Assembly: GCA_013695115.1 (NCBI GenBank)
Contig: JACDBD010000197.1
Coordinates: 1-11,906, forward strand
Length of the DNA: 11,906 nucleotides
Source of the DNA: Actinomycetota bacterium
GTDB lineage: Bacteria > Actinomycetota > Acidimicrobiia > IMCC26256 > JACDBD01
Reading direction: 5' to 3'
Shown here in pieces: positions 1-11,906 of the stretch (positions are counted from its first letter, which is position 1; every line of letters begins with the position of its first letter). The notes beneath the pieces were generated by a model, which saw only the letters and a program-made list of their open reading frames with translations, searched no databases and was not told the DNA's origin. A program made the position numbers and the translations under genes.

Positions 1-201
1 GCGCGCGCACGCTGGCACCGTCCTCCGAAGACAGCACCCCCACCCTGATGCCCAGCGCGACGACGATCTCGGCCGGCCGGCCGGTGGACTCGTCGGCACC
101 GCCCGAGCCGGGCTCCTCGCTGCCACACCCGCCCACGACGCAGCCGCGCCAACCAGGCCCGCGAGCATGTACCCGAGCGTCCGGCGGCGTGCGGCGGCCA
201 T
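1..201 (-). CDS. Putative lipoprotein, 5' end only, with apparent frameshift
   Basis: This is the start of a minus-strand gene cut by the left edge of the window. From the ATG at 201 the first frame reads MAAARRRTLGYMLAGLVG, a basic stretch then a hydrophobic one, as in a signal peptide. That frame then loses sense. From about position 142 a different frame reads CVVGGCGSEEPGSGGADEST and onward to the window edge with nearly every third codon base G or C. VVGGC looks like a lipobox with the acylated cysteine at 125-127, followed by the usual Gly/Ser/Glu-rich linker. One missing base between about 142 and 150 would join the two halves into a normal lipoprotein leader. It could be a real mutation or a sequence error. 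The start lies 49 bases past the sigma factor stop on the same strand, so co-transcription is possible. The mature domain is not visible, so no function is assigned. Substrate-binding lipoprotein is only one possibility. Confidence 0.5.
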   Translation of the reverse strand, partial: MAAARRRTLGYMLAGLVGAAASWAGVAARSPARAVPTSPPAGRPRSSSRWASGWGCCLRRTVPACAR

Positions 202-250
202 GCGAGCGGGTCCGGCGCGGATGGCCTTCCGGGACCTCTGGGTCTACGGC

Positions 251-1189
251 TTAGACCGCCAGCAGGTCGCGGGCGCCGGTGTCGGCGGATGGGTGGCGAA
301 GCTTCGACATCGCCCGGGCTTCGATCTGGCGGATCCGTTCCCGGGTCAGGTTGAAATACTCGCCCACTTCTTCCAGCGTGCGGGGCTCGCCCCGGTCGAG
401 GCCGAAGCGCAGCGCCAGGATCTGGCGCTCTCGCTCGTCCAGCGGAGCCAGTAGCTTCTCGATCTCCTCGGGCAGCAGCGCGGTGGCCGCGACCTCGAAG
501 GGCGACTCGGCCGAGCGGTCCTCGACGATGTCGCCCAGCTCGGCGTCGCCGTCCTCGCGCAGCGGCTCACTGAGCGACAGCGGCTCGGCGGCGAAGCGAA
601 GCGCCTCGGTGACCTTGTCTTCGGGCATCTCGACCTCGATCGAGAGCTCCACGAGCGTGGCCGGCCGTCCGAGCTTGAGCTCGAGACGTGACCGGGCCTT
701 CTGGAGGCGCGCCAGCGTGTCGCCGGCGTGGACCGGCAGGCGGATGGTGCGGCCGGTGTTGGCGATGCCGCGGGTGATGGCCTGGCGGATCCACCAGGTG
801 GCGTAGGTCGAGAACTTGAAGCCCTTGCGCCAGTCGAACTTCTCGACCGCGTGCATCAGGCCGAGGTTGCCCTCCTGGATCAGGTCGAGGAGGGGCAGGC
901 CCGACGCCTGGTACTTCTTGGCGATCGAGACCACCAGGCGCAGGTTCGACTGGACGAACGTGCGCTGGGCGTCGTCGCCCTGGCGGGCGCCCCGGCGCAG
1001 CTCCCGCTTCTTGGCCGCGGCGAGGTCCTTGCCGCCGGCCAGGAGCTCCTCGCGGGAGGCGTTGCCGCCCTCGATCTCCTGGGCGAGGCGGACCTCGTCG
1101 TCCTTGGTGAGCAGGGGGTACTGCCCGATATCGGTGAGGTAGAGCCGGACGAGATCTTCCTCGTCCCGCTCGACACGCTCTTTCGCCAC
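251..1189 (-). CDS. RNA polymerase sigma factor, RpoD/SigA-like (sigma-70 group 1 or 2)
   Basis: A promoter-recognition subunit that binds core RNA polymerase in the cytoplasm. Counting 312 residues from the GTG at 1189: region 1.2 at about 11-40 (DLVRLYLTDIGQYPLLTKDD), region 2 at 76-160 including DLIQEGNLGLMHAVEKFDW, the melting segment FKFSTYATWWIRQAI and TRGIANTGRTIRLPVH for -10 contact, region 3 at about 160-225, and region 4 at 240-300 with the -35 reading helix TRERIRQIEARAMSKLRHP. Region 1.1 is absent, and a basic spacer at about 44-72 separates regions 1.2 and 2.1. A TTG at 1267 would give 338 residues, but the GTG is preceded by AGAAGG six bases away, and a promoter at 1281-1308 would leave the TTG almost leaderless, so the GTG is preferred. 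Whether this is the primary housekeeping sigma or a group 2 paralogue cannot be told from the window. Region 4 is of the type that reads TTGACA-like -35 boxes, such as the one in front of its own gene. Confidence 0.95.
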   Translation of the reverse strand: MAKERVERDEEDLVRLYLTDIGQYPLLTKDDEVRLAQEIEGGNASREELLAGGKDLAAAKKRELRRGARQGDDAQRTFVQSNLRLVVSIAKKYQASGLPLLDLIQEGNLGLMHAVEKFDWRKGFKFSTYATWWIRQAITRGIANTGRTIRLPVHAGDTLARLQKARSRLELKLGRPATLVELSIEVEMPEDKVTEALRFAAEPLSLSEPLREDGDAELGDIVEDRSAESPFEVAATALLPEEIEKLLAPLDERERQILALRFGLDRGEPRTLEEVGEYFNLTRERIRQIEARAMSKLRHPSADTGARDLLAV

Positions 1190-1280
1190 GTGAACCCTTC
1201 TGGGTGTCTTTTCGGGGGGTCTGTTCCTGCCATTGGACGGGCCCGGGCGCGTGTTCCCAAGCGCCAAAAAGGGCTTCGTC

Positions 1281-1308
1281 TATCTAGCTACGATACCGGC
1301 TCCGTCAA
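1281..1308 (-). promoter_or_regulatory. Candidate sigma-70 promoter of the sigma factor gene
   Basis: On the minus strand TTGACG (1303-1308) is followed after 16 bases by TAGATA (1281-1286). Five of six bases match the -35 consensus, and the -10 is weaker. Transcription would start near 1274 and give a leader of about 85 bases before the GTG at 1189. The site lies in the divergent gap between the sigma and monooxygenase genes. Confidence 0.45.
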
Positions 1309-1318
1309 GGAGGGCTTT

Positions 1319-1353
1319 CATCGAGCCCGGACGGGCCCCGGGAGGGCTCGATG
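1319..1353 (+). repeat. 10-bp inverted repeat enclosing the RBS and start codon of the ABM gene
   Basis: CATCGAGCCC (1319-1328) and GGGCTCGATG (1344-1353) are exact reverse complements separated by 15 GC-rich bases. The right arm contains the end of the GGAGG ribosome binding site (1341-1345) and the ATG at 1351. If the transcript begins upstream of 1319, the RNA would fold with the start codon paired, limiting translation. As DNA the same symmetry could be an operator in the divergent region. The repeat is seen directly; its role is inferred. Confidence 0.6.
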
Positions 1354-1674
1354 GCCTCGGATGAGGTGGAGCTGGCGGTCGTCGTCGGGGCCTTCGACGC
1401 CCGCACCGGGCGGGAGGCCGAGCTGGCGGCGACCCTCGCCAAATACGTCGTCATGACCCGGGGCCGCCCCGACTGCCGCAACGTCGATCTCGTGGCGTCC
1501 GTCCTGCACGCGGGCCGGCTGGTGGTGATCGAGAAGTGGGGCTCGGCCGACGCCGCCCGGGCCCACCTCGACGCCGACGAGACGGTGGAGATGGCCAGAG
1601 AGGCGACCGACCTCCTCGCCCGCCCCCCCGACCTCGACCTGCTGGAGGCGGTCAGCGCCCACGACCTGGAGTAG
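1351..1674 (+). CDS. ABM-domain (antibiotic biosynthesis monooxygenase / YgiN-like) protein
   Basis: A 107-residue single-domain protein of the dimeric alpha-beta barrel (ABM) fold, the family of quinol monooxygenases and related cofactor-free oxygenases. The order of elements fits: a first strand VELAVVVGAFDARTG with the loop to a helix (REAELAATLAKYVVM), then CRNVDLVAS (Asn44), the strand RLVVIEKWGSADAARAHL with Trp63 and His72 in the usual places, and a C-terminal strand LDLLEAV. The length is typical. GGAGG lies five bases before the ATG, supporting this start, although the region can fold (see inverted repeat). It is the only plus-strand gene in the left half, divergent from the sigma factor and converging on the next gene with 11 bases between stop codons. 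The substrate cannot be read from the sequence; many family members are of unknown function. The family call is fairly firm, the specific reaction is not. Confidence 0.8.
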   Translation: MASDEVELAVVVGAFDARTGREAELAATLAKYVVMTRGRPDCRNVDLVASVLHAGRLVVIEKWGSADAARAHLDADETVEMAREATDLLARPPDLDLLEAVSAHDLE

Positions 1675-1685
1675 CGGGCTGAGCG

Positions 1686-2309
1686 TCAGCCGCTCGCGGC
1701 CTTGAGCGTCTCCCGGCGGATCGACCCCTTCTTCTTGAGCGCGGGACGCGGGTCGGAAGCGGCGCACTCGGCGCAGATCGCCTCGATGTCGGACCACGCG
1801 AGCGCGTCGGCCGACCACAGCCGCTCGAAGGCGGCGTCGGCGACGTCGGTGAAGCCGTTGTAGAGACGGAAGTGGTAGAGCCGGCGGACCCGGCGGGTGT
1901 GCTCGCCCAAGCGAGCGACGCGACCCTCGGCCCATACCTCCCACGCGTGACGATGGGCGTCGCTGAGCTGCTCGTCGACGGGTGCGTCCGCGAAGCCGGG
2001 ACCGAGGCGGTCGGCGGCTCGCAGGAGTCCAATCGCGAGCTCGGTGCGGGCGACGGGCTCGTCGAAGTGTGTGCGATACCGGCCGTCCTCGAAGTTCGCG
2101 CCCGAGAACCACAGCGCGGCCCGCCCGTCGACGACATCGGCGGTGGCGCCGGTGAGCGGCAGCGGGAGCTCCTCGTCGATCTCGACCGTGATGTCGACAT
2201 CATCGGGGAAGCCGGTCTTTGCCGCGAGCTCCTCGGTGAGCCCGGCGATCGCGCCGGCGTCGTAGTCGACCAGCGTGAAGGTCTCCGGCGTGACCTGCAC
2301 CCGCGCCAT
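1686..2309 (-). CDS. Conserved-looking protein of unknown function, 207 aa
   Basis: I do not recognise this family. The protein starts MARVQVTPETFTLVDYDAGA from the ATG at 2309, with GGGAG about eight bases upstream. The N-terminal half is acidic and strand-like (DDVDITVEIDEELPLPLTGA, then DVVDGRAALWFSGANFED). The C-terminal half is helical and rich in His, Arg and aromatic residues (HRHAWEVWAEGRVARLGEHT, then RRLYHFRLYNGFTDVADAAF). A short CAEC motif and a basic tail (KKKGSIRRETLKAASG) end it. There is no signal peptide or membrane segment, so it is probably cytoplasmic. It lies 74 bases after the ferritin-like gene on the same strand, with a hairpin in the gap, so it may be the third gene of that unit, expressed at a different level. 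The adjacent His residues and CxxC suggest possible metal contact, but that is a guess. A longer minus-strand reading starting further upstream overlaps the ferritin-like gene and is rejected. Confidence 0.75.
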   Translation of the reverse strand: MARVQVTPETFTLVDYDAGAIAGLTEELAAKTGFPDDVDITVEIDEELPLPLTGATADVVDGRAALWFSGANFEDGRYRTHFDEPVARTELAIGLLRAADRLGPGFADAPVDEQLSDAHRHAWEVWAEGRVARLGEHTRRVRRLYHFRLYNGFTDVADAAFERLWSADALAWSDIEAICAECAASDPRPALKKKGSIRRETLKAASG

Positions 2310-2326
2310 CAAACAGCTCCCTCGCT

Positions 2327-2349
2327 CGGCGCCGGGATACCCGACGCCG
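2327..2349 (-). terminator. Hairpin between the ferritin-like gene and the 207-aa gene
   Basis: CGGCG-C-CGGG, the loop ATA, then CCCG-A-CGCCG: nine base pairs with one symmetric mismatch and a three-base loop. There is no run of T after it on the minus strand, so it is not a classical intrinsic terminator. It could be a weak attenuator or a stabilising 3' stem for the upstream message. A second small stem, CTGAC-GGG-GTCAG (2375-2387), spans the upstream stop codon. Confidence 0.4.
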
Positions 2350-2383
2350 CCCCTTCGGGGTCGCTCGTCCGCACCTGACGGGG

Positions 2384-3211
2384 TCAGTCGCCGCTGGCGA
2401 CGCCGTGGAGGGCGTCCGCGGCGGCGCGGGCCTCCTCTTGCGCCTCGGTCGCGACCTCGGAGAGGTCGTCGATCTCCTCGGTCGAGAAGCCCGCCATCTC
2501 GCGGAACTTGCGGGCGAGCTGGATCGGGTTCTCGTCGGTCTCGCCCCGGAACCCGCCCAGGCTGAAGAGCTTGTCCACGGTGCGCTGGAACTCGAGCGCC
2601 CGCTCGCGCCGCTCGGGGTCGTTCTCGGTGAGGCGGCGCAGCCAGTCGGAGCCCATCTTCACGTGGGTCACCTCGTCGGCGAGCATCCAGTCCTCGCACG
2701 CGGCCAGCACCGGGTCGCCCGAGACGTCACCGAACTCCTTCATCGTGTTGAACACGTCGATGGCGAGGCCCTCGAGCGCACGGTTCACACCGGTGAGGCG
2801 CAGGAGCGCGTCGGGCGCGCAGGCGGCCTCGTAGAGGAAGGTGGCCTCGGTGAACTCGCCGATCTCGGAGCCCATGTGCTCGGATAGCTTCACCGAGATC
2901 TCGCAGTGGCGGGACTCGTCCCAGCACTGGCGGGCCATGTCCAGCTTGAGCTGGAACGGGATCTCGTCGTCGTCGAAGTCGAAGGTGGTGCGGCCGGCGC
3001 CCTCGAGCGCCTGGATCTCACCCACGAATATGCCGTGCATGAGCTGGCGGGCGCGGTCGGCTGCGGCCGGGCGGGCGGGCTCGAGCCGGGCCGAACCGGT
3101 GTTGCGCTCGGAGACCTTCGCCTGGCGGGGGTCGCTGATGGCGTCCTCGATGCGGGCCCGGACGAACCGGGAGTCCCGGGCGAGCTCCTCGACCGGCAGG
3201 ATCTTCTTCAT
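2384..3211 (-). CDS. Ferritin-like diiron-carboxylate protein (full ligand set), 275 aa
   Basis: A predicted four-helix-bundle protein of the ferritin-like superfamily, resembling DUF455/MiaE/PaaA-type proteins. The diiron signature is visible in order: Glu65 in helix 1 (VGEIQALEGA), Glu99-Ser-Arg-His102 in DESRHCE (ExxH), Glu147 in RALEGLAIDVF, and Glu180-Val-Thr-His183 in DEVTHVKMG (second ExxH). That is a complete Glu/His set for a carboxylate-bridged iron pair, so oxygen or peroxide chemistry is plausible. The substrate is unknown. The first 50 residues are variable and the C-terminus is a helical Ala/Glu-rich tail (about 245-275). There is no export signal. The ATG at 3211 overlaps the TGA of the upstream gene as ATGA, and AAGGAG lies about ten bases before it, so translation is probably coupled. 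The neighbour is a second, degenerate ferritin-like protein, which suggests a heteromeric complex. The fold call is good; the exact family name is uncertain. Confidence 0.82.
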   Translation of the reverse strand: MKKILPVEELARDSRFVRARIEDAISDPRQAKVSERNTGSARLEPARPAAADRARQLMHGIFVGEIQALEGAGRTTFDFDDDEIPFQLKLDMARQCWDESRHCEISVKLSEHMGSEIGEFTEATFLYEAACAPDALLRLTGVNRALEGLAIDVFNTMKEFGDVSGDPVLAACEDWMLADEVTHVKMGSDWLRRLTENDPERRERALEFQRTVDKLFSLGGFRGETDENPIQLARKFREMAGFSTEEIDDLSEVATEAQEEARAAADALHGVASGD

Positions 3212-3882
3212 CCGACGCTCACTCCTTCGGCGGCCTCGTCGGCCTGCCCTTCCGGGTTCCCCAGCGTACCGGGGCCGGTGATGCCCCCGGCGCTGCGGAT
3301 CAGGTCCTCCAGCGCCTGCTGGCGCCGGGAGGCCCGCTCCACCTCCTCGGGCGTCTGGATCAGGGACTGGAGGAGCATCTCGCCCTCCCGCCAGTCCTCC
3401 ATCTCGTCCTGGAGGATGAAGCCCAACGAGCGGATCGTGGGGGCGTCGGTGATCCGGCTCGTCGCGTTCATGTGGAACGTGTACGCGGCGACCTTGCGGG
3501 GGATCAGCACGCGGTAGACGCCCACGAGCTTCTCGATGGTCAGCTCGGGCGCCTCGGGGTCGCGCACCGCGTCCACGAACTTCACCATTTCCTCGTTGGG
3601 AGGCTCGGTGAGGCGCTCGGTGTTCATCTCCCGCAGCTCGGGGAGGCGCTTGTTCCACAGCTCGGCGTGCCAGGCGTGGTGGTAGCACTGGCGCCCGAGC
3701 ACGAACTTCACGTCGAGCTCGGGGACGGTCGCCACCCAGCCACCGAGCGCCTCGAACAGGCGCATCTCGATCCACTTGTAGTTGCCGACGCGCCGCGCCG
3801 ACTCGACCACGCCGAACAGCCCGGGCAGCTCGCGCCGGTCCCAGGGGGCGAAGGCGGGGCGGGGCGCGCCCGATGCGGTCAC
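3208..3882 (-). CDS. Ferritin-like protein with degenerate metal ligands, 224 aa
   Basis: A soluble, mostly helical protein that looks ferritin-like. Candidate helices are YKWIEMRLFEALGGWVATV (Glu39, Glu44), then the His-rich GRQCYHHAWHAELWNKRL (His68, His69, His72, Glu74), then VYRVLIPRKVAAYTFHMNAT, then LGFILQDEMEDWREGEMLLQ (Glu160, Asp163). Canonical ExxH pairs are missing: Gln65 stands where the helix-2 Glu would be expected, and helix 4 has ExxD. It may bind metal differently, or act as a non-catalytic partner, as PaaC is to PaaA. The last 25 residues are Gly/Glu-rich and probably disordered. A TTG at 3918 would add 12 residues, but these would be encoded by the 18-bp palindrome and its flank, so the GTG at 3882 is preferred, with GGGAG about ten bases upstream. 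The gene begins 50 bases after the DUF3558-like lipoprotein gene and overlaps the next gene by four bases. Confidence 0.75.
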   Translation of the reverse strand: MTASGAPRPAFAPWDRRELPGLFGVVESARRVGNYKWIEMRLFEALGGWVATVPELDVKFVLGRQCYHHAWHAELWNKRLPELREMNTERLTEPPNEEMVKFVDAVRDPEAPELTIEKLVGVYRVLIPRKVAAYTFHMNATSRITDAPTIRSLGFILQDEMEDWREGEMLLQSLIQTPEEVERASRRQQALEDLIRSAGGITGPGTLGNPEGQADEAAEGVSVG

Positions 3883-3901
3883 GGACGAGAGTCTCCCGTC
3901 A

Positions 3902-3919
3902 CTTGACCGATCGGTCAAG
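3902..3919. promoter_or_regulatory. Perfect 18-bp palindrome, TetR-type operator candidate
   Basis: CTTGACCGATCGGTCAAG is fully self-complementary, with no spacer. Inverted TTGACC/GGTCAA half-sites of this length and composition are typical of operators for TetR-family dimers. It lies 20 to 37 bases before the GTG of the ferritin-like pair and in no accepted coding sequence. A further half-site, GGTCAA (3943-3948), lies inside the end of the lipoprotein gene. No regulator gene is present in the window, so the protein would be encoded elsewhere. The palindrome is certain; the class of regulator is inferred. Confidence 0.7.
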
Positions 3920-3932
3920 CAAGGTGACGGCC

Positions 3933-4445
3933 TTATTCCAGGCGGTCAATGGCCCTGGCGGCGAGATTCTCGGCTGCCTCCCGGAGCCGCGCTTCGTCGG
4001 TCTCGCCGTCGAGGGCTCCGGTCACGGTGAGCGTGAGCTGTCCCGCGTCGGTGCAGGCGACGATGTTGCCGAACCCGCCCTGGATGTCGAGGTACGACCA
4101 GTAGGTCGGAACATCGAATCCGACGACCTTCTCGTTCGCCGGGTCCATGGCGAGCGCGTCGACACAGAGCTGCTCGTCGGGACCGACGAGCAACGAGACG
4201 CTCACGCTCGTACCGTCGGTCACGCTCGCCCAGTCGCACAGCCGCACGCCGACCTCGTCCGAACCATCGGCGACCGGGTTCCCCACTGCAGCCGCGACTT
4301 CCCCGCGGGTGAGCAGCTCGCAGACCCGGACGTCACCCCCAGGGGCACGCCCCGCCTTCGACACACCATCGTCGCCGTCGGAACAGGCCGGGAGCGTCAA
4401 CGCCAGCGCGCCGGCGGTCAGCACCATCGGTCGTATGCCTCTCAT
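3933..4445 (-). CDS. DUF3558-like secreted lipoprotein, 170 aa
   Basis: A small exported lipoprotein. The leader MRGIRPMVLTAGALALTLPAC gives a basic start, a hydrophobic core and a lipobox LPAC with Cys21 as the acylated residue, followed by the linker SDGDDGVSKAGRAPGG. The globular part begins RVCELLTRGEVAAAVGNPVA and continues to RLCDWASVTDG, the pattern of actinobacterial DUF3558 proteins (C-x-LL-T-x-x-E-V, then LCxW). Further cysteines in LCVDALA and VACTDAG could pair in disulfides outside the membrane. The ATG has GGAG seven bases upstream and overlaps the TGA of the transporter gene (ATGA), so translation is probably coupled. The function of DUF3558 proteins is not established. Being the last gene of the nadE-transporter unit does not by itself indicate a role. 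The lipoprotein call is firm, the family call moderate. Confidence 0.8.
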   Translation of the reverse strand: MRGIRPMVLTAGALALTLPACSDGDDGVSKAGRAPGGDVRVCELLTRGEVAAAVGNPVADGSDEVGVRLCDWASVTDGTSVSVSLLVGPDEQLCVDALAMDPANEKVVGFDVPTYWSYLDIQGGFGNIVACTDAGQLTLTVTGALDGETDEARLREAAENLAARAIDRLE

Positions 4446-5320
4446 CCGATCGCTCCGTTGTCGACTCGCGCGTCGGGCGCCAGTTCGGCGATCGCGATCC
4501 CGACCAGGATGATCGCCGCGCCGGTCAGCCTCACCGCGCCGAGGCGCTCGCCGGCGAAATAGCCCACGATCCCGGCGAAGACCGGCTCGGTCAGAAGAAT
4601 GAGCGCGGCCCGGCTGGGGCTGATCCGCCGCTGCCCGTAGAGCTGGAGTGAGAGTGCGACCGAAGAGCAGGCGACACCGGTGAACGCGGCGGCGAAGAGC
4701 GCGATCCCGGTCAGCTCCCCCAGCCCGGTCGCGGCCGTGACTGGCACCGAGGCGCCCGCGAGCACGGCCATCTGCACGGTCACGAACGGGATCGTGTGCA
4801 ACCGGTTCGCGTACCCGCCCTGGTACACGATCCAGATCGCGAACGCGACCGCGCACGCGAGCGTGAGCAGCTCACCCCGGCCGAACGTCAGCTCGGCCCC
4901 GGTCAGGAGGAACAGTCCGCCGGTGGCAACGACGATCCCGAGGCAGACGCCGAGCGGCGGCAGGCGGCGGCGCACGATCGCCTCGATGACCGGCGTGAAG
5001 ATCGCGTACAGACCGGTGATGAACGCCGACGTCGACGACTCGGTGTACTGGAGGCCGATGGTCTGGGTGATGTACCCGGCGAACAGCAGCAGACCGGCGA
5101 TGGTGCCGGCGTGCCAGAGCAGTCCCGGCGGCTCCCGGTTGCGCCGGGCGATTCGCCATGCGAATGGCGCGAGGACTGCCGCACCGATGACGAACCGGAT
5201 AGTGATGTACCCGGCCGGGGTGACGTCTTCGATCGCGTCCTGCACGAGGACGAACGTCACGCCGAAGAAGAACGCCGCGAGCACCAACGCGCCCTCGGCG
5301 ACGAACCGACGGTCGCGCAA
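4442..5320 (-). CDS. EamA-family (DMT superfamily) transporter, 292 aa
   Basis: An integral membrane protein of the drug/metabolite transporter superfamily, with two EamA repeats of about five helices each. Ten hydrophobic segments can be traced: about 9-28, 37-55, 66-86, 96-115, 122-140, 150-168, 176-197, 204-224, 232-255 and 263-283. Family features are visible in the first repeat (LAAFFFGVTFVLVQDAI near the N-terminus, TSAFITGLYAIFTPVIEAIV in helix 4) and at the end of the second (SPSRAALILLTEPVFAGIVG, then LTGAAIILVGIAIAEL). The length is typical. Members export or import amino acids, purines, vitamins or drugs; the substrate cannot be predicted. The start is a TTG at 5320, six bases after the nadE stop, with no clear ribosome binding site, which suggests translational coupling. 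It is followed by the lipoprotein gene with a four-base overlap. A link to NAD precursors is suggested only by position. Confidence 0.9.
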   Translation of the reverse strand: MRDRRFVAEGALVLAAFFFGVTFVLVQDAIEDVTPAGYITIRFVIGAAVLAPFAWRIARRNREPPGLLWHAGTIAGLLLFAGYITQTIGLQYTESSTSAFITGLYAIFTPVIEAIVRRRLPPLGVCLGIVVATGGLFLLTGAELTFGRGELLTLACAVAFAIWIVYQGGYANRLHTIPFVTVQMAVLAGASVPVTAATGLGELTGIALFAAAFTGVACSSVALSLQLYGQRRISPSRAALILLTEPVFAGIVGYFAGERLGAVRLTGAAIILVGIAIAELAPDARVDNGAIG

Positions 5321-5326
5321 CTGTCG

Positions 5327-7036
5327 TTAGCCGGGCCAGCGGTTCGTGATGGGCAGCCGGCGGTCCTTGCCGAATGCCTTGGGCGACACCCGCACGCCCG
5401 GGGGCGCCTGGCGGCGCTTGTACTCGCTCCGGTCGACGAGCCGGGCGACCCGGCGGACCTGCTCGGCGTCGAAGCCGGCGTCCTCGAGCTCGGTGACCGA
5501 CTGGTCGTCCTCGACGTAGCCCTCGACGATGGGGTCGAGCTCGGCGTAATCGGGCAGCGAGTCGGAGTCCTTCTGATCGGGGCGGAGCTCGGCGCTGGGC
5601 GGCTTCTCGAGCACCGACTCCGGGATGAGGGCCCGCCCGGCGCGCTCGTTACGGTCGCGGGCGAGGGCATATACGAGCATCTTCGGTACGTCCTTGATGA
5701 CGGCGAAGCCGCCGGCCATGTCGCCGTAGAGCGTGGAGTAGCCGGTGGCGAGCTCGCTCTTGTTGCCGGTGGTGAGCACGAGCGCACCGAACTTGTTGGA
5801 CAACGCCATGAGGATGGTGCCCCGCACGCGGGCCTGGACGTTCTCCTCGGCCAGACCGGGCGCGGTCCCCTCGAACGAGTCGGCCAGCAGGTCGAGGAAA
5901 GCGGAGTGGGCGGCCTCGATCGGGATGATCACGGTGCGGATGCCGAGATTGGCGGCGAGCGCCTCGGCGTCGGCGAGGCTGCCCGGACTCGAGAACCGCG
6001 ACGGCATGAGCACGCCCAGCACGCGCTCGGGACCGAGCGCGTCGACGGCGATCGTCGCGACCAGCGACGAGTCGATGCCGCCCGAGAGGCCGATCACGAC
6101 GTCGGTGAAGCCGTTCTTCATGACGTAGTCACGGGTGCCGAGCACGAGGGCCTCGTAGACCTCTCGCACCGGCGGCAGCGCCGGCTCGATCCGGGGCCCC
6201 ATGGCCCGCTCGCGCAGCTGGGCGTCGCTCACCCGCACCTCGGGCAACGACCCCGCGCTCACCCGGCCGCGCGGGTCGAGCAGGCGGCGCCGGAACGCGG
6301 GCCGCACGTCGACGTCGACGATCAGCAGGTCCTCCGCGAACTGCTTGGCCCGGGCGACCAGCCGGCCTCTCTCGTCGAACAGCATCGACGCGCCGTCGAA
6401 GACGAGCTCGTCCTGCCCACCGACGAGGTTCACGTACAGCAAGGGAACGCCGGCGTCCGCGGCTCGGGTCGCGAGCATGGTCTCCCGTTCGCGCAGCCGC
6501 CCGGCGTAGTACGGCGACGCGTTGATGTTGACGACGAGCTCGGCACCGGCGTTGGACTGGGTGACGATCGGCCCGTTGGGGCTCCACGCGTCCTCGCACA
6601 CGGTCACCGCGACCCGCACCCCGCCCACGACGAGCAGGGGGCCGTCGACGGTGGAGGGCTCGAAGTAGCGCTCCTCGTCGAACACCGCGTAGTTGGGCAG
6701 CAGGTGCTTGTGGTACACGCCTGCCACCTTTCCGCCCGCGCACACCGCGGCGGCGTTGTAGAGGTCGCGCTCGGCGTGGGGGAAGCCGATCACGGCCGCG
6801 GCCCGGCCGGTGCGGGCCGCCACCTTCTCCAGGGTCTCCTGCGCCGCCTCCACGAACGCCGGCCGCAGCAGCAGGTCCTCGGGCGGGTACCCGGTGATCG
6901 CGAGCTCGGGGAAGGCGACGAGATCGGCGCCGGCATCCTCGGCCTGCTCGTAGGCGTCGAGGATGCGGGTGGCGTTGCCCTCAAGGTCACCGACGACGAG
7001 GTTCAGCTGAGCGGCGGCGACGCGCAGCGGAGGCAT
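5327..7036 (-). CDS. nadE: Glutamine-dependent NAD+ synthase
   Basis: Catalyses the last step of NAD+ synthesis, amidating nicotinic acid adenine dinucleotide with ATP and ammonia drawn from glutamine. The 569 residues contain a nitrilase-fold glutaminase domain (1 to about 270) with the catalytic triad Glu44 (FPELAITGYPPEDLL), Lys110 (YHKHLLPNY) and Cys147 (VTVCEDAW). A synthetase domain (about 285-569) follows, with the ATP pyrophosphatase loop LSGGIDSSL at 317-325, the motif TTGNKSELATGYSTLYGD and the C-terminal RSEYKRRQAPPG. All key residues are present and the length is usual for bacteria of this type. The ATG at 7036 matches the usual beginning of the family (MPPLRVAAAQLN). An upstream GTG at 7057 would add seven residues and almost touch the glnE start. 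There is no Shine-Dalgarno sequence, but TATCCT ends six bases before the ATG, suggesting a leaderless message. It heads the unit with the transporter and lipoprotein. Confidence 0.96.
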   Translation of the reverse strand: MPPLRVAAAQLNLVVGDLEGNATRILDAYEQAEDAGADLVAFPELAITGYPPEDLLLRPAFVEAAQETLEKVAARTGRAAAVIGFPHAERDLYNAAAVCAGGKVAGVYHKHLLPNYAVFDEERYFEPSTVDGPLLVVGGVRVAVTVCEDAWSPNGPIVTQSNAGAELVVNINASPYYAGRLRERETMLATRAADAGVPLLYVNLVGGQDELVFDGASMLFDERGRLVARAKQFAEDLLIVDVDVRPAFRRRLLDPRGRVSAGSLPEVRVSDAQLRERAMGPRIEPALPPVREVYEALVLGTRDYVMKNGFTDVVIGLSGGIDSSLVATIAVDALGPERVLGVLMPSRFSSPGSLADAEALAANLGIRTVIIPIEAAHSAFLDLLADSFEGTAPGLAEENVQARVRGTILMALSNKFGALVLTTGNKSELATGYSTLYGDMAGGFAVIKDVPKMLVYALARDRNERAGRALIPESVLEKPPSAELRPDQKDSDSLPDYAELDPIVEGYVEDDQSVTELEDAGFDAEQVRRVARLVDRSEYKRRQAPPGVRVSPKAFGKDRRLPITNRWPG

Positions 7037-7042
7037 ACCCCA

Positions 7043-7052
7043 AGGATACGGT
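7043..7052. promoter_or_regulatory. Overlapping divergent -10 elements for leaderless nadE and glnE
   Basis: Minus strand: TATCCT (7043-7048), then six bases, then the nadE ATG at 7036. Plus strand: TACGGT (7047-7052), then six bases, then the glnE GTG at 7059. Both hexamers fit the actinobacterial TANNNT -10 pattern at the spacing seen for leaderless mRNAs, and they share two bases. No TTGACA-like -35 is visible for either. The arrangement is seen directly; its activity is inferred. Confidence 0.5.
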
Positions 7053-7058
7053 GCCACC

Positions 7059-9827
7059 GTGGTCCTGGCGCCGGTGCTGAACGAGCCGATCGAGCGCGCC
7101 GCCGACCCCGGGATCGCCCGGGCCGTCGTCGAACGGGTCGTCGAGGCGCACCCGGAGGTCGCGGACGACCTGGCCGAGCGCGCATTGGTGCGTGACGGAC
7201 TGATCGCGCTCGCGTGCGCGTCGCGATCGCTGTCGACCGCGGTGATCGGCCACCCCAGCCTGCTCGATCCGCTGCGCGACGAGCGGGGCTTCGCGACCGA
7301 ACGCGACGCCGACGGGTACGCGGCATCGTGGCAGGAGCACGCCGATCACTCCCCCGCCGGCCTTCGGGGGTGGAAGCGCCGCGAGCTCCTGCGCACCGCC
7401 GCCCGCGACCTGCTCGGCCTGGCCGACCTGCCCGCGGTCGGACGCGAGCTGGCCGCGCTGGCGGAGACGTGCTTGGGGGCCGCGGTCGGGATCGTGGCTC
7501 CGGACGTCCGCCTCACCGTCGTCGGGATGGGCAAGCTCGGCGGCCGGGAGCTCAACTACGCCAGCGACGTCGACGTGCTGTTCGCCCACGACGGAGATGC
7601 CGACGCGGCCGAGCGCAGCGCGCGCGAGCTGCTTTCCACGATGAGCACGCCGACCCCGGAAGGGATCGTGTTCCGCACCGACGCCGACCTGCGTCCCGAG
7701 GGGAAGTCGGGACCGTTGAGTCGCAGCATCGACTCGTACGCGGCGTATTGGGAGCGCTGGGCCCAGACGTGGGAGTTCCAGGCGCTGATCAAGGCCCGGT
7801 GGGTCGCGGGGGACGCCGACCTCGGCGAGCAGTTCCTCGACGCGGCCCGCCCGCACGTGTGGCCGGAGATGCTCGACCCTGACGCGGTGCGCGAGGTGCG
7901 GGCGATGAAGGGGCGCGCCGAGAGCGAGACCGCTCGCAAGGGGCTGACCGAACGCGAGCTGAAGCGGGGACGGGGCGGGATCCGCGACATCGAGTTCGCG
8001 GTCCAGCTCCTTCAGCTCGTCCACGGCCGTCACGACGAGTCGGTCCGGCCGGCGAACACGCTCGCCGCGCTCGGCGCGCTCGCGGCCGCCGACTACGTCG
8101 GGCGCCCCGACGCCGACGAGCTCGATGAGGCGTACCGCTACCTGCGGACGGTCGAGCACCGGCTCCAGCTCTGGGACGAGCAGCAGACCCACACGCTGCC
8201 GTCGGACGGGACGGCGCGCCGCCGGCTCGCCCGCGTAATGGGCTACCGCGACCGGGGCGACGGATCGGCGGTCGAACGCTTCGACGCCGACCACCGCGCC
8301 CAGCAGGCGCGGGTGCGCACGATCCACGAGCGCCTCTTCTTTGCACCGATCCTCGACACCCTGGCGGGCGCGGGCCCGCTGACCGGCGAGGCGGTCGAGG
8401 AGCGCCTGACCGCGTTCGGCTTCGTCGACGTCGCCTCGACCCGGGCCGCGCTGCGCGAGCTCGCCACCGGGCTCACCCGCCGATCGAAGGTCATGCAGCA
8501 GCTGCTCCCGGTCATCCTGGGCTGGCTCTCGGCCGCGCCCGACCCCGACCTCGGGCTCCTCCAGCTCCGACGCCTGGCCGAGGGACCCGCCCGTTCGGCG
8601 TCGTTGGCGACGACCTTCCGCGAGTCTCCCGGCGCGGCCGAACGCGCCTGCCGGCTGCTCGGGTCGGGCCGAGTGCTCGGCGAGGCGCTGCGGCGCCAGC
8701 CCGACTTCGTCGAAGCACTAGGCGACGACGAAGCGCTGGCGCGCGAGAAGACGCGCGCCGAGCTCGTGGAGGAAGCGCTGGGAACCCTGGGATGGCGCGG
8801 CGGCGCCGAGCAGCGACGCGAGGGTCTGCGACGGTTCAAGCGCCGGGAGCTGCTCCGGATCGCGGCCCGCGACGTGCTCGGGTTCGCGACCGTCGAGGAG
8901 GCGGGACGCGAGCTGGCCGGGGTGGCCGAGGCGTGTGTCGAGGCCGCGCTACGAATGCTCGAGCCCGAGCAGCCGTTCGCGGTGATCGGCATGGGGCGGT
9001 TCGGCGGCGGCGAGCTGTCGTACGCGTCCGACATCGACGTGTTGTTCGTCTACGACGGCGACACGCCCGCCGACTTCGCCGCCGCCGAGCGCACCGCCGA
9101 GGCGCTGATGCGAGAGATCGGGGCCACCACCGCCGAGGGCCAGACCTTCCGGATCGACGCCGACCTGCGGCCTGAGGGCAAGCAGGGCCCGCTCGCCCGC
9201 AGCGTCGACGGCTACCGGACCTACTACGAGCGCTGGGCCAAGACCTGGGAGTTCCAGGCGCTGCTGAAGGCGCGGCCGGTGGCAGGGGATCCCGAGCTCG
9301 GTAAGCGATTCGCGGCGCTGGTCGAGCCGTTCGTGTACCGCGACCCGTTCCCCGACGACGCGGTCCGCGAGGTGCGCAGGATGAAGGCGCGCATCGAGCG
9401 GGAGCGCATCCCGCCGGGCGAGGACCCGGAGTTCCACCTGAAGCTGGGGCGGGGATCGCTGTCGGACGTCGAGTTCACCGTGCAGTTGCTCCAACTCGTC
9501 CACGGTGCGATCCGGCCCGAGGTGCGGGCGACGGCGACGATCGAGGCGTTGCGCCGACTCCAAGAGGCGGGACTGATCGACAACGACGACGCCACCGCGC
9601 TCGAGGAGTCGTACCGGTTCTGCGAGCGGGCCCGGAACGCCAGGTACCTGCTCACCGGCTCACCGACGGACGCCCTGCCGACCGACGGCGCCGAGGCCCT
9701 CAAGCTCGCTCGCGTGCTCGGGTACATCCACCGGCCCCAGGCGAGCCTGCGCGACGACTACCGCCGGGTCACTCGTCGCGCCCGCAAGGTGTTCGAACAG
9801 ACTTTCTACGGGCGGGCCGAGACGTAG
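7059..9827 (+). CDS. glnE: Bifunctional glutamine synthetase adenylyltransferase / adenylyl-removing enzyme
   Basis: Adds AMP to, and removes it from, a tyrosine on each glutamine synthetase subunit, turning ammonium assimilation down or up with nitrogen status. The 922 residues show the tandem layout of the family (about 946 in E. coli). Two nucleotidyltransferase modules are present: GMGKLGGRELNYASDVDV at 156-173 with Asp170 and Asp172, and GMGRFGGGELSYASDIDV at 644-661 with Asp658 and Asp660. Each is followed by DADLRPEGK and an ERWA-TWEFQAL segment, so the internal duplication is plain. By family knowledge the N-terminal half removes AMP and the C-terminal half adds it, with helical regulatory regions between. 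All metal-binding aspartates are intact in both halves. The GTG at 7059 lies 22 bases from the divergent nadE start, with no good ribosome binding site but a TACGGT hexamer six bases before it. Its substrate GlnA is encoded nearby at the right edge. Confidence 0.96.
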   Translation: MVLAPVLNEPIERAADPGIARAVVERVVEAHPEVADDLAERALVRDGLIALACASRSLSTAVIGHPSLLDPLRDERGFATERDADGYAASWQEHADHSPAGLRGWKRRELLRTAARDLLGLADLPAVGRELAALAETCLGAAVGIVAPDVRLTVVGMGKLGGRELNYASDVDVLFAHDGDADAAERSARELLSTMSTPTPEGIVFRTDADLRPEGKSGPLSRSIDSYAAYWERWAQTWEFQALIKARWVAGDADLGEQFLDAARPHVWPEMLDPDAVREVRAMKGRAESETARKGLTERELKRGRGGIRDIEFAVQLLQLVHGRHDESVRPANTLAALGALAAADYVGRPDADELDEAYRYLRTVEHRLQLWDEQQTHTLPSDGTARRRLARVMGYRDRGDGSAVERFDADHRAQQARVRTIHERLFFAPILDTLAGAGPLTGEAVEERLTAFGFVDVASTRAALRELATGLTRRSKVMQQLLPVILGWLSAAPDPDLGLLQLRRLAEGPARSASLATTFRESPGAAERACRLLGSGRVLGEALRRQPDFVEALGDDEALAREKTRAELVEEALGTLGWRGGAEQRREGLRRFKRRELLRIAARDVLGFATVEEAGRELAGVAEACVEAALRMLEPEQPFAVIGMGRFGGGELSYASDIDVLFVYDGDTPADFAAAERTAEALMREIGATTAEGQTFRIDADLRPEGKQGPLARSVDGYRTYYERWAKTWEFQALLKARPVAGDPELGKRFAALVEPFVYRDPFPDDAVREVRRMKARIERERIPPGEDPEFHLKLGRGSLSDVEFTVQLLQLVHGAIRPEVRATATIEALRRLQEAGLIDNDDATALEESYRFCERARNARYLLTGSPTDALPTDGAEALKLARVLGYIHRPQASLRDDYRRVTRRARKVFEQTFYGRAET

Positions 9828-9851
9828 GTAACCCGATCGCGGTCGGTGGGA

Positions 9852-9866
9852 CGCACCGTCGGTGCG
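9852..9866. terminator. Short hairpin in the convergent glnE / protease gap
   Basis: CGCACC-GTC-GGTGCG forms a six-base-pair stem with a three-base loop, 25 bases past the glnE stop. No T-run follows on either strand, so it is only a weak terminator candidate. The rest of the 102-base gap (9828-9929) holds no other clear element. Confidence 0.3.
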
Positions 9867-9929
9867 ACTAGGTAGGCGCGGGCCCACGGCCGAACGGCGG
9901 GGTTGAGCGCTATTCGACGGTGTTCGGGC

Positions 9930-11252
9930 TCAGACGCAGGTCAGGACGGCCTGATCGGGCCGGACGAGACCGTGGCCGGTGTCGTTGTCGACGCCCGCGC
10001 CGGCGAGGTCCTGGGCGGTGGTGCGGAGCCGGGCCTCGGTCTGGGCCCGGTTACAGCCCTTGCCTCGCACCAGCGCCGCGGACCCGGCCACGTGCGGGCT
10101 GGCCATCGACGTGCCGTTGATCGTCCGGTACCCGCCGTCGTTCCAGGTCGAGACGATGGCGACGCCGGGGGCGGCCAGGTCGACATACGCCCCCGAGGTC
10201 GAGAAGGCCGCCCGCAGGTTGCTCGAATCGGTGGCGGCCACCGCGAGCACCTCGGGGAACGCGCCCGGGTACGACGGCGAGTTCGCAAAGCCGCACCCTG
10301 AGCCGCCCTGGCCGCAGTTCCCGCCCGCCGCCACGACTGTCACTCCGCTCTGCACCGCGTTCTGGATCGCCTGCTGCAGCACCGAGGAGCTGTTGGGGGA
10401 CCCGAGACTCAGGTTGATCACCGTGGCGCCCTGGCTGACGGCCCAGTCGACGCCGCTGGCCACGTCGGACGTAAACCCCGAGCCATTGGCACACAGGACC
10501 TGCACCGGCAGGATTTGAGCGCCAGGGGCGGCGCCGGCGATGCCCACGCCGTTGTTGGCGGTGGCTGCGGCGATCCCGGCCACGTAGGTGCCGTGGCCGC
10601 TGGGGTCGCTGGTTCCGCCCGGGCCCGAGAAGGCGGTGCCCCCGTCGTCGCTGTGGAGGAAGAAGGCGCCCGAGAGCACCTTCCCGCTGAGGTCCGGGTG
10701 CGACGCGTACACACCGGTGTCGATCACCGCAATGACTTGGCCGCTGCCGGCGGTGAACTGACCGGGGGCGAACGCGGTCCAGGCGTCCTCGATGCGCAGA
10801 TGGGTGCTGTCGAGCGCGTACTGCGCCGTCGGATCGTTGTGCGAGACGGCCGACACCGGCGCGTCGACCTCGACCGCGACCAGATCGCCGTCGGCGGCCC
10901 TCTCGTCCGCGACCGCGGCGGCCTGGTCCGCGTCGGCGACCGGCGTAGTGGTGATCTCGAGCTGTCCGCCGGCGGATTGCTCCGCGGTGACCAGCGGGAT
11001 TCGCCCGTCGGCGGTGCGCTGCTCGCTCTCGGCGACCTCCTGGCGGGCCTCGGCGCCGGCCGCGCCCGGTGGGATCGGGGCATCCGAAGCGGGCGGGGGC
11101 GGCGGTTCGGGGCTCGGCGCCTCCGTCGTCGCGGCGGCGGCGCCCGCGCACGCGCTGGGTGTCGGCGGCGGCGGCGGCGGGGTTCCCCCGCCCACGCACG
11201 CGGTCAGACCGAGCGAGCCCGCGACTCCAACCAGGATGAACGCGCGCCGCAT
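9930..11252 (-). CDS. Subtilisin-like (S8 family) serine protease, predicted lipoprotein, 440 aa
   Basis: An extracellular, probably membrane-anchored protease. The leader MRRAFILVGVAGSLGLTAC ends in a lipobox LTAC with Cys19. A Pro/Ala/Glu-rich linker (22-66) includes runs of six and five prolines. Residues about 80-150 may be a propeptide or inhibitor-like domain. The catalytic domain (about 153-440) has Asp178 in AVIDTGVYASHPD, His220 in DPSGHGTYVAGIAA, the oxyanion Asn312 in AAGGNCG and Ser382 in NGTSMASPHVAG, so the triad is complete. Cys313/Cys320 and Cys400/Cys439 are placed so that disulfides are plausible. The ATG at 11252 has no ribosome binding site but has TAGAGT seven bases upstream. 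The gene begins 43 bases after the glnA stop on the same strand and converges on glnE. No functional link with nitrogen control is evident. Related actinobacterial proteins include mycosins, but the type VII secretion genes expected beside a mycosin are not seen here. Confidence 0.95.
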   Translation of the reverse strand: MRRAFILVGVAGSLGLTACVGGGTPPPPPPTPSACAGAAAATTEAPSPEPPPPPASDAPIPPGAAGAEARQEVAESEQRTADGRIPLVTAEQSAGGQLEITTTPVADADQAAAVADERAADGDLVAVEVDAPVSAVSHNDPTAQYALDSTHLRIEDAWTAFAPGQFTAGSGQVIAVIDTGVYASHPDLSGKVLSGAFFLHSDDGGTAFSGPGGTSDPSGHGTYVAGIAAATANNGVGIAGAAPGAQILPVQVLCANGSGFTSDVASGVDWAVSQGATVINLSLGSPNSSSVLQQAIQNAVQSGVTVVAAGGNCGQGGSGCGFANSPSYPGAFPEVLAVAATDSSNLRAAFSTSGAYVDLAAPGVAIVSTWNDGGYRTINGTSMASPHVAGSAALVRGKGCNRAQTEARLRTTAQDLAGAGVDNDTGHGLVRPDQAVLTCV

Positions 11253-11259
11253 TGGCGAG

Positions 11260-11265
11260 ACTCTA
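11260..11265 (-). promoter_or_regulatory. Candidate -10 element for a leaderless protease transcript
   Basis: TAGAGT on the minus strand fits TANNNT and ends seven bases before the protease ATG. No -35 box is visible. The gap to glnA is only 43 bases and lacks a terminator, so read-through from glnA is also possible. Confidence 0.35.
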
Positions 11266-11295
11266 CTTGCGCCCGCCCCTGGCCTCCGACGCTGC

Positions 11296-11906
11296 TCAGA
11301 TGTCGTAGTAGAGGTAGAACTCCCACGGGTGCGGGCGCAGCCGCACCGCGTCGATCTCGTTCTCCCGCTTGTACGTGATCCAGGTGTCAATGACGTCCTG
11401 GGTGAACACGCCCCCGGCGAGGAGGTAGTCCTGGTCGGCCTCGAGCGCGGCCAGGCTCTCGTCGAGCGACCCCGGCACCTGGGGCACCGCCGCCAGCTCC
11501 TCGGGCTCGAGGTCGTAGAGGTCCTTGTCGACCGGGTCGGGCGGCTCGATACGGTTCTGGACACCGTCGAGGCCCGCCATCAGCATCGCCGCGAAGGCGA
11601 TGTACGGGTTGGCCGACGGGTCGGGGCAGCGGAACTCGAGCCGCTTGGCCTTCGGGCTCTTCGAGTACAGCGGGATGCGCACGCACGCGGACCGGTTGCG
11701 CTGGGAGTACACCAGGTTCACCGGCGCCTCGTAGCCCGGCACCAGCCGCTTGTACGAGTTGGTGGTCGGCGCGGCGAACGCCAGGATCGAGGGCGCGTGC
11801 TTGAGCAGCCCGCCGATGTACCAGCGGGCCATGTCGGAGAGGCCGCCGTAGCCCTTCTCGTCGAAGAACAGTGGCTCGCCGCCCTTCCACAGTGACTGGT
11901 GGCAGT
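11296..11906 (-). CDS. glnA: Glutamine synthetase type I, C-terminal part
   Basis: Makes glutamine from glutamate, ammonia and ATP as a dodecamer in the cytoplasm. About 203 C-terminal residues are in the window; the N-terminus and start lie beyond the right edge. The reading frame at the edge gives [16 protein letters not shown], the conserved metal/substrate region. It continues with [20 protein letters not shown] (the glutamate/ATP-site loop), [20 protein letters not shown], and the end [15 protein letters not shown]. The adenylylation loop reads [11 protein letters not shown], with the target Tyr at codon 11515-11517, so this enzyme is of the GSI-beta kind controlled by GlnE, whose gene is 1.5 kb away. 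No frame break is visible. The protease gene follows after 43 bases on the same strand. Upstream regulation cannot be seen. Confidence 0.97.

Follow-up and report, generated by a model that had tools for sequence, protein, structure and literature searches.

The closest described counterpart of the gene pair reported here is PaaA/PaaC, a catalytic and a structural ferritin-like subunit that are related to each other and, according to the passages of PMC4498308 that deal with them, share a fold at 17% identity. The pair in question is encoded on the minus strand of an 11,906-nucleotide stretch from an Actinomycetota bacterium of the class Acidimicrobiia (assembly GCA_013695115.1, contig JACDBD010000197.1, positions 1 to 11,906; hereafter, the window). 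It comprises P1 (3208..3882, GTG start at 3882, stop at 3208-3210), a 224-aa ferritin-like protein with an altered metal site (E39, H69, H72, I127, E160, D163), and P2 (2384..3211), a 275-aa ferritin-like protein of the DUF455 family with the complete diiron ligand set E65, E99, H102, E147, E180 and H183. P1 and P2 probably make up a single heteromeric enzyme, a non-haem diiron oxygenase or oxidase of DUF455 type, as its two subunits; fold class, ligands and pairing give good support to a division into one catalytic and one altered subunit, which is strengthened by a family of proteins in which the two are fused. The original prediction of a PaaA/PaaC-like pair behind a palindromic operator had been placed at 3208-3919, an interval that takes in P1 and the palindrome and leaves the partner P2 (3211-2384) outside.

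The likeness to PaaA/PaaC extends to structure, the top Foldseek match of P1 being a PaaAC chain, and P1 and P2 are 25% identical in direct alignment, against the 17% of PaaA and PaaC. The two systems differ in family and architecture: neither P1 nor P2 matches the Pfam family PaaA_PaaC at E up to 1 (a setting at which the HMMER filters drop most matches above ~0.1), and a one-polypeptide version of P1/P2 exists. No PaaB or PaaE gene was recognised by eye among the conserved neighbours of 80 related loci, where no profile search for either was made. By analogy, the pair would work like PaaA/PaaC without being a member of that family. P1 and P2 are also smaller than the bacterial multicomponent monooxygenases (methane, toluene), and show no match to the Pfam family of these enzymes at E up to 1, and no monooxygenase effector or gamma gene was recognised nearby. 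Aldehyde-deformylating oxygenase and R2lox, enzymes not known to have a degenerate partner subunit, rank with the best fold matches for P1 as well as for P2, at identities of no more than ~18% in the matches seen; a family's absence from these match lists was given no weight.

P2 belongs to DUF455 (PF04305; E 3e-19, 70 bits against a curated cut-off of 34.3), a large family, given that of 8000 scored candidates 4678 matched P2; it is named in a passage of a fold-assignment survey (PMC4520260), and of the searched papers that name it none, judged by titles, appears to concern its function. P1 gave no DUF455 match at E up to 1 and reaches the cut-off of no Pfam or NCBIfam family. A profile search proposed with the original prediction thus succeeded for P2 and DUF455, while MiaE, like PaaA_PaaC, was matched by neither protein at E up to 1, and P1 matched nothing. 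Database names of relatives follow the same line, P1 being a 'hypothetical protein' and P2 mostly an 'uncharacterized ferritin-like protein (DUF455 family)' or 'DUF455 family protein'. AlphaFold models predict ferritin-type helical bundles for both proteins, in keeping with the similar helical plan first noticed in the sequence, and models and fold matches alike indicate four-helix bundles; in the P2 model, helices 50-78, 86-112, 135-164 and 167-194 bear E65, E99/H102, E147 and E180/H183, respectively. The relationship between P1 and P2 is concluded from their shared fold, from a blastp match and from the existence of fused proteins rather than from profile comparison, in which their match had a low probability (0.6 to 3.3). 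A comparison of profiles A3 and A5 was discarded, both containing the same fused proteins. Sequence searches of the PDB returned nothing with P2 at E up to 1 and nothing useful with profile A3; P1 retrieved two isomerase chains (E 0.064 and 0.088), dismissed as unrelated.

Central to the assignment is the conservation of metal ligands. The profiles retained 77 of 80 P1, 69 P2 and 59 P3 sequences, matches with stops or <70% coverage having been dropped. The downstream protein had been credited with Glu65, two ExxH pairs and Glu147, and this held throughout: all six ligands of P2 are identical in 70 of 70 sequences, the window included, and again in all 48 rows of a wider set (26 P2s and 22 fused relatives at 21 to 27% identity). 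The window P2 contains exactly two ExxH motifs (99-102 and 180-183) and the window P1 none, as originally read; the diiron pattern of E + ExxH + E + ExxH is accordingly present in P2 and absent from P1. An ExxH at 74-77 in 35 of 78 P1 sequences is variable and lies five residues out of ligand register. Alignment pairs E39 with E65, H69 with E99, H72 with H102, I127 with E147, E160 with E180 and D163 with H183, a register with which the helices of both models are consistent; relative to P2, the P1 site has therefore kept E39, H72 and E160, swapped two ligands (H69 for E99, D163 for H183) and lost one (I127 for E147).

These departures are themselves conserved. Across 78 P1 sequences, E39, H69 and H72 are invariant (78/78), D163 occurs in 77, E160 in 76 and H68 in 73, which bears out the His-rich helix described for the upstream protein, whereas position 127 varies among I, L, A, V and M. 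Because the residues now in place are conserved, the P1 site is altered rather than decayed, with residues of its own under selection; the label 'degenerate' thus holds for the incomplete set and the loss at I127, but not as a description of the whole site.

Equally important is the pairing of the two genes across genomes. Searches with P1 and with P2 over one set of 198 genomes of the class gave strong matches in 40 and 38 genomes, respectively, and P1 lies within 1 kb of P2 on the same strand in all 38 genomes with a strong P2, first in 36 and in reversed order in two (G149, G250). The survey of adjacency called for at the outset therefore came out in favour of the pair, in a count restricted to strong matches: 38 of 45 P2-matched genomes (7 weak, E 3e-5 or above, omitted) and 40 of 68 P1-matched genomes (28 weak, E 2e-32 or above, omitted). 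Strong P2 loci number 41, three of them solo extra copies, and P1 stands without P2 in G134 and G239. A set of 80 named loci, the best 80 of 91 confirmed and chosen by P1, is nearly all titled Acidimicrobiia or other Actinomycetota with a few odd labels, and its members are related, so that counts are not independent; within it, P1 is followed by P2 in 73 loci, and P1, P2 and P3 (the third gene of the conserved operon) occur in order in 68. Six of the loci without an adjacent P2 (L074, L096, L099, L103, L122, L130) come from genomes that all carry P2 elsewhere, and in the seventh, L120, the sequence stops right after P1.

Several individual loci depart from this arrangement. In L003 (G134; 2139-2489), and likewise in L167, the P2 match behind P1 is limited to its first 21 residues and two separate P3 pieces come next, remnants that look like a decaying operon in a genome rated 100% complete. 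L192 (2293-3962) carries a tandem pair of P2 genes on one contig. The solo P2 paralogues of L170, L172 and L196 adjoin a 106-122-aa protein that appears membrane-bound by eye and of which two tested examples had no Pfam match, and the solo P2 of L171 has an ABM-domain gene ending 9 bp ahead of it.

Both domains also occur in one polypeptide. Genome G041, from outside the class, encodes a 445-aa protein whose N-terminal half is P1-like and whose C-terminal half is DUF455, and a database search with it found 1585 relatives among 8000 scored candidates. The best 120 of these, which are alike to the fused query by selection, all carry DUF455 (a few are named Actinomycetota and one Dormibacteraceae), and in 119 of them the P1 profile matches the N-terminal and the P2 profile the C-terminal half, none crosswise. 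Profile comparison agrees, with probabilities of 97.5 for P1 against the fused N-terminal half (207 columns) and 97.8 for P2 against the fused C-terminal half (230 columns), against 0.1 and 0.7 for the crossed pairs; a match of 43 columns between the two fused halves was set aside as an artefact of variable cut points. P1 and the fused N-terminal domain have R79, E82, R84, R90 and D146 in common. Fused genes were found in 5 of 296 genomes of the phylum (G041, G417, G425, G433, G458; at most five candidates scored per genome), and two of the 39 genomes in the class of G041 gave matches, that of the second, G349, being confined to the DUF455 half. The Pfam model spans the P2 half alone, leaving the N-terminal half of the tested fusion unannotated, and PF04305 is the sole family carried by the best 120. 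Judged from these sequences, separate P1 and P2 follow the order of a single fused protein in which Pfam leaves the N-terminal half unannotated, a correspondence newly recognised here. Occurrence in both split and fused form is good evidence that the halves work together, and the existence of fused homologues makes a heteromeric catalytic/structural complex likely. Predicted ferritin-like folds, adjacency in 38 of 38 genomes and colinear fusion together make a strong case that P1 and P2 function as a PaaA/PaaC-like pair; the resemblance originally drawn thus stands, short of membership in the PaaA_PaaC family.

In the mechanism that we propose, P2 would be the catalytic subunit, with E65, E99/H102, E147 and E180/H183 forming a putative O2-activating diiron site, both metal identity and oxygen chemistry being predicted. 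P1 would be its ferritin-like partner, in which the third bundle helix no longer carries its Glu (I127) and two further ligands have changed. Its role would be structural or regulatory, possibly with a single metal or one other than iron, in a presumed physical complex with P2. Electrons may be supplied by a ferredoxin or reductase encoded elsewhere in the genome, and in two divergent lineages by a ferredoxin whose gene lies inside the operon. One promoter that overlaps a TetR-type operator would drive P1, P2 and P3 jointly, and the enzyme would be made once a ligand releases the repressor. More tentatively, and as a possibility rather than an expectation, a branch of DUF455 may be an uncharacterised class of two-bundle heteromeric diiron oxygenases whose partner domain, a neighbouring gene or an N-terminal half, is unmodelled by Pfam, and in which, within the class of the window genome (named close relatives are Acidimicrobiia), the partner has a metal site of its own and of another kind (E/H/H/E/D), so that the heterodimer would contain two sites.

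The conserved P1 residues also lend themselves to another explanation, namely that P1 is a metalloprotein in its own right, with E39, H69, H72, E160 and D163 binding Zn, Mn or one Fe, and that the two proteins share a pathway rather than a complex, either both as enzymes or one as enzyme and the other as sensor. The near-invariance of all five residues speaks for it, as does the existence of distant P1-like proteins (~24 to 39% identity) without P2 in the 18 loci fetched, of which three of the 13 tabulated (L149, L150, L153) keep the full set. Against it, the 26 fused N-terminal domains examined retain only E39 and are still joined to a P2-like half, and the two reversed pairs, while keeping E39, H69 and H72, have D and Q at positions 160 and 163; the full P1 site is therefore not needed for the pair, and this explanation is unlikely.

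A second alternative, that the pair handles iron or peroxide in the manner of bacterioferritin, rubrerythrin or Dps rather than oxygenating a substrate, draws on the fold matches of P2, where bacterioferritins stand level with oxygenases. This tie counts against an oxygenase or oxidase, and comparison of the predicted folds does not decide between the two. Sequence points the other way, in that P2 falls within DUF455 with no match to the ferritin or rubrerythrin Pfam families at E up to 1, and the weak match of the P2 profile in the PDB is to R2lox (E 0.021, Glu and ExxH aligned). A ferredoxin gene in two operons likewise suggests electron supply, and an iron or peroxide function is accordingly unlikely. 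In both reversed lineages, this 4Fe-4S dicluster ferredoxin gene stands directly before P2 (L165 3530-3835, plus strand; L166 5540-5839, minus strand), an observation resting on those two lineages; a wider ferredoxin-P2 search around G250 otherwise gave P2s at ~45-53% identity and many weak matches. A TetR gene is nearby in both (Pfam-tested in L166, by eye in L165).

Clues to the substrate come from neighbouring genes, which were script-chosen open reading frames named by eye unless Pfam is stated. That the pair acts on nucleosides or RNA-derived compounds, as a MiaE-like or nucleoside-modifying hydroxylase, is suggested by the four clear fused genes (G041, G417, G425, G433), all of which adjoin an inosine-uridine nucleoside hydrolase gene (PF01156; L161 2196-3131, L215 1336-2265, L216 6870-7895, L217 1987-3093) and two of which overlap a PfkB kinase reading frame (L215, L217). 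These are only four loci, however, with hydrolase and fused gene on the same strand in one; the more distant 391-aa fusion of G458 (L218 3284-5855) instead follows and overlaps a circularly permuted ATP-grasp-like gene (PF14403), and no nucleoside hydrolase was seen by eye among the conserved neighbours of typical P1-P2 loci. Reading frames near the reversed pairs resemble acyl-CoA enzymes, and the solo P2 of L194 is followed by Pfam-confirmed AMP-binding and acyl-CoA dehydrogenase genes, which also argues against nucleosides as substrates, a reading we regard as quite improbable. The acyl-CoA and nucleoside clues disagree, and neither substrate class is chosen. That gene order merely reflects a vertically inherited, stable region without shared function has very little probability: nadE-like (upstream, 49/80) and sigma-factor-like (downstream, 57/80) genes are conserved nearby as well and a mirror-tree coevolution test on P1 and P2 did not discriminate, but the pair persists reversed in two lineages, is fused elsewhere and here overlaps by an ATGA.

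For the proposed heteromeric oxygenase or oxidase, pairing and fusion show which proteins to express together and give a name to an unannotated domain, while the conserved ligand changes of P1 make it possible to test directly how the metal site of a ferritin-like subunit is lost or changed. The operator, in turn, offers a route to the inducer and hence perhaps to the substrate. It is a perfect 16-bp palindrome, TTGACCGATCGGTCAA, at 3903..3918, 20 bp before the P1 start, with 0.03 matches expected in the window when up to 3 mismatches are allowed. Its class, TGACCGNNCGGTCA, has five copies in the genome against none for a control pattern, and TGACC-N(2-6)-GGTCA occurs within 150 bp before P1, with varying centre, in 14 of the 80 loci, against 0.18 predicted from the remaining locus sequence and none for a reversed control, and not in the other 66. 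The palindromic repressor site proposed earlier is thus a real TetR-like site, though one that only some P1 genes have in front of them; no gene of the window was recognised as encoding a TetR protein. A RutR site is described in a passage of PMC10891134 as an approximately 16-bp palindrome; a likeness of the window palindrome to the RutR box was considered, no paper with those letters was found and no claim of it is made.

The four further copies point to a putative TetR regulon of small size, with a TetR gene among its members. One (C22:12805) has a minus-strand gene on one side and, on the other, a luciferase-like monooxygenase gene followed by a hydrolase, one (C153:5360) lies between divergent genes, one of them with DUF7064/7065, and one (C199:44) near a contig start; the last (C234:2954) adjoins a TetR gene, which is a candidate regulator. 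The TTGACC of the palindrome may double as a -35 hexamer, as suggested by a promoter-like pattern, partly together with the palindrome, before P1: TTGACC, 17 to 18 bases and GAGAAT in 14 of 80 loci, five of them with the palindrome, against an expectation of 0.02 that is post hoc, the pattern having been composed after viewing the same sequences. The second hexamer of the window itself, GAGACT, departs from this pattern.

On the minus strand the gene order is P1, P2, P3, and the stop of P1 and the start of P2 share the ATGA at 3208..3211, an overlap that may couple their translation. Convergent with the operon is the gene of an ABM-domain protein (1351..1674, plus strand; PF03992), a neighbour conserved downstream in 58 of 80 loci. 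P3 (1686..2309, minus strand; 207 aa, its start predicted from homologues) reaches no Pfam or NCBIfam family above cut-off, yet it follows P1 and P2 in most of the loci, and E74, D100, F106, W123, R130, Y145 and F153 are invariant in 60 aligned P3 sequences.
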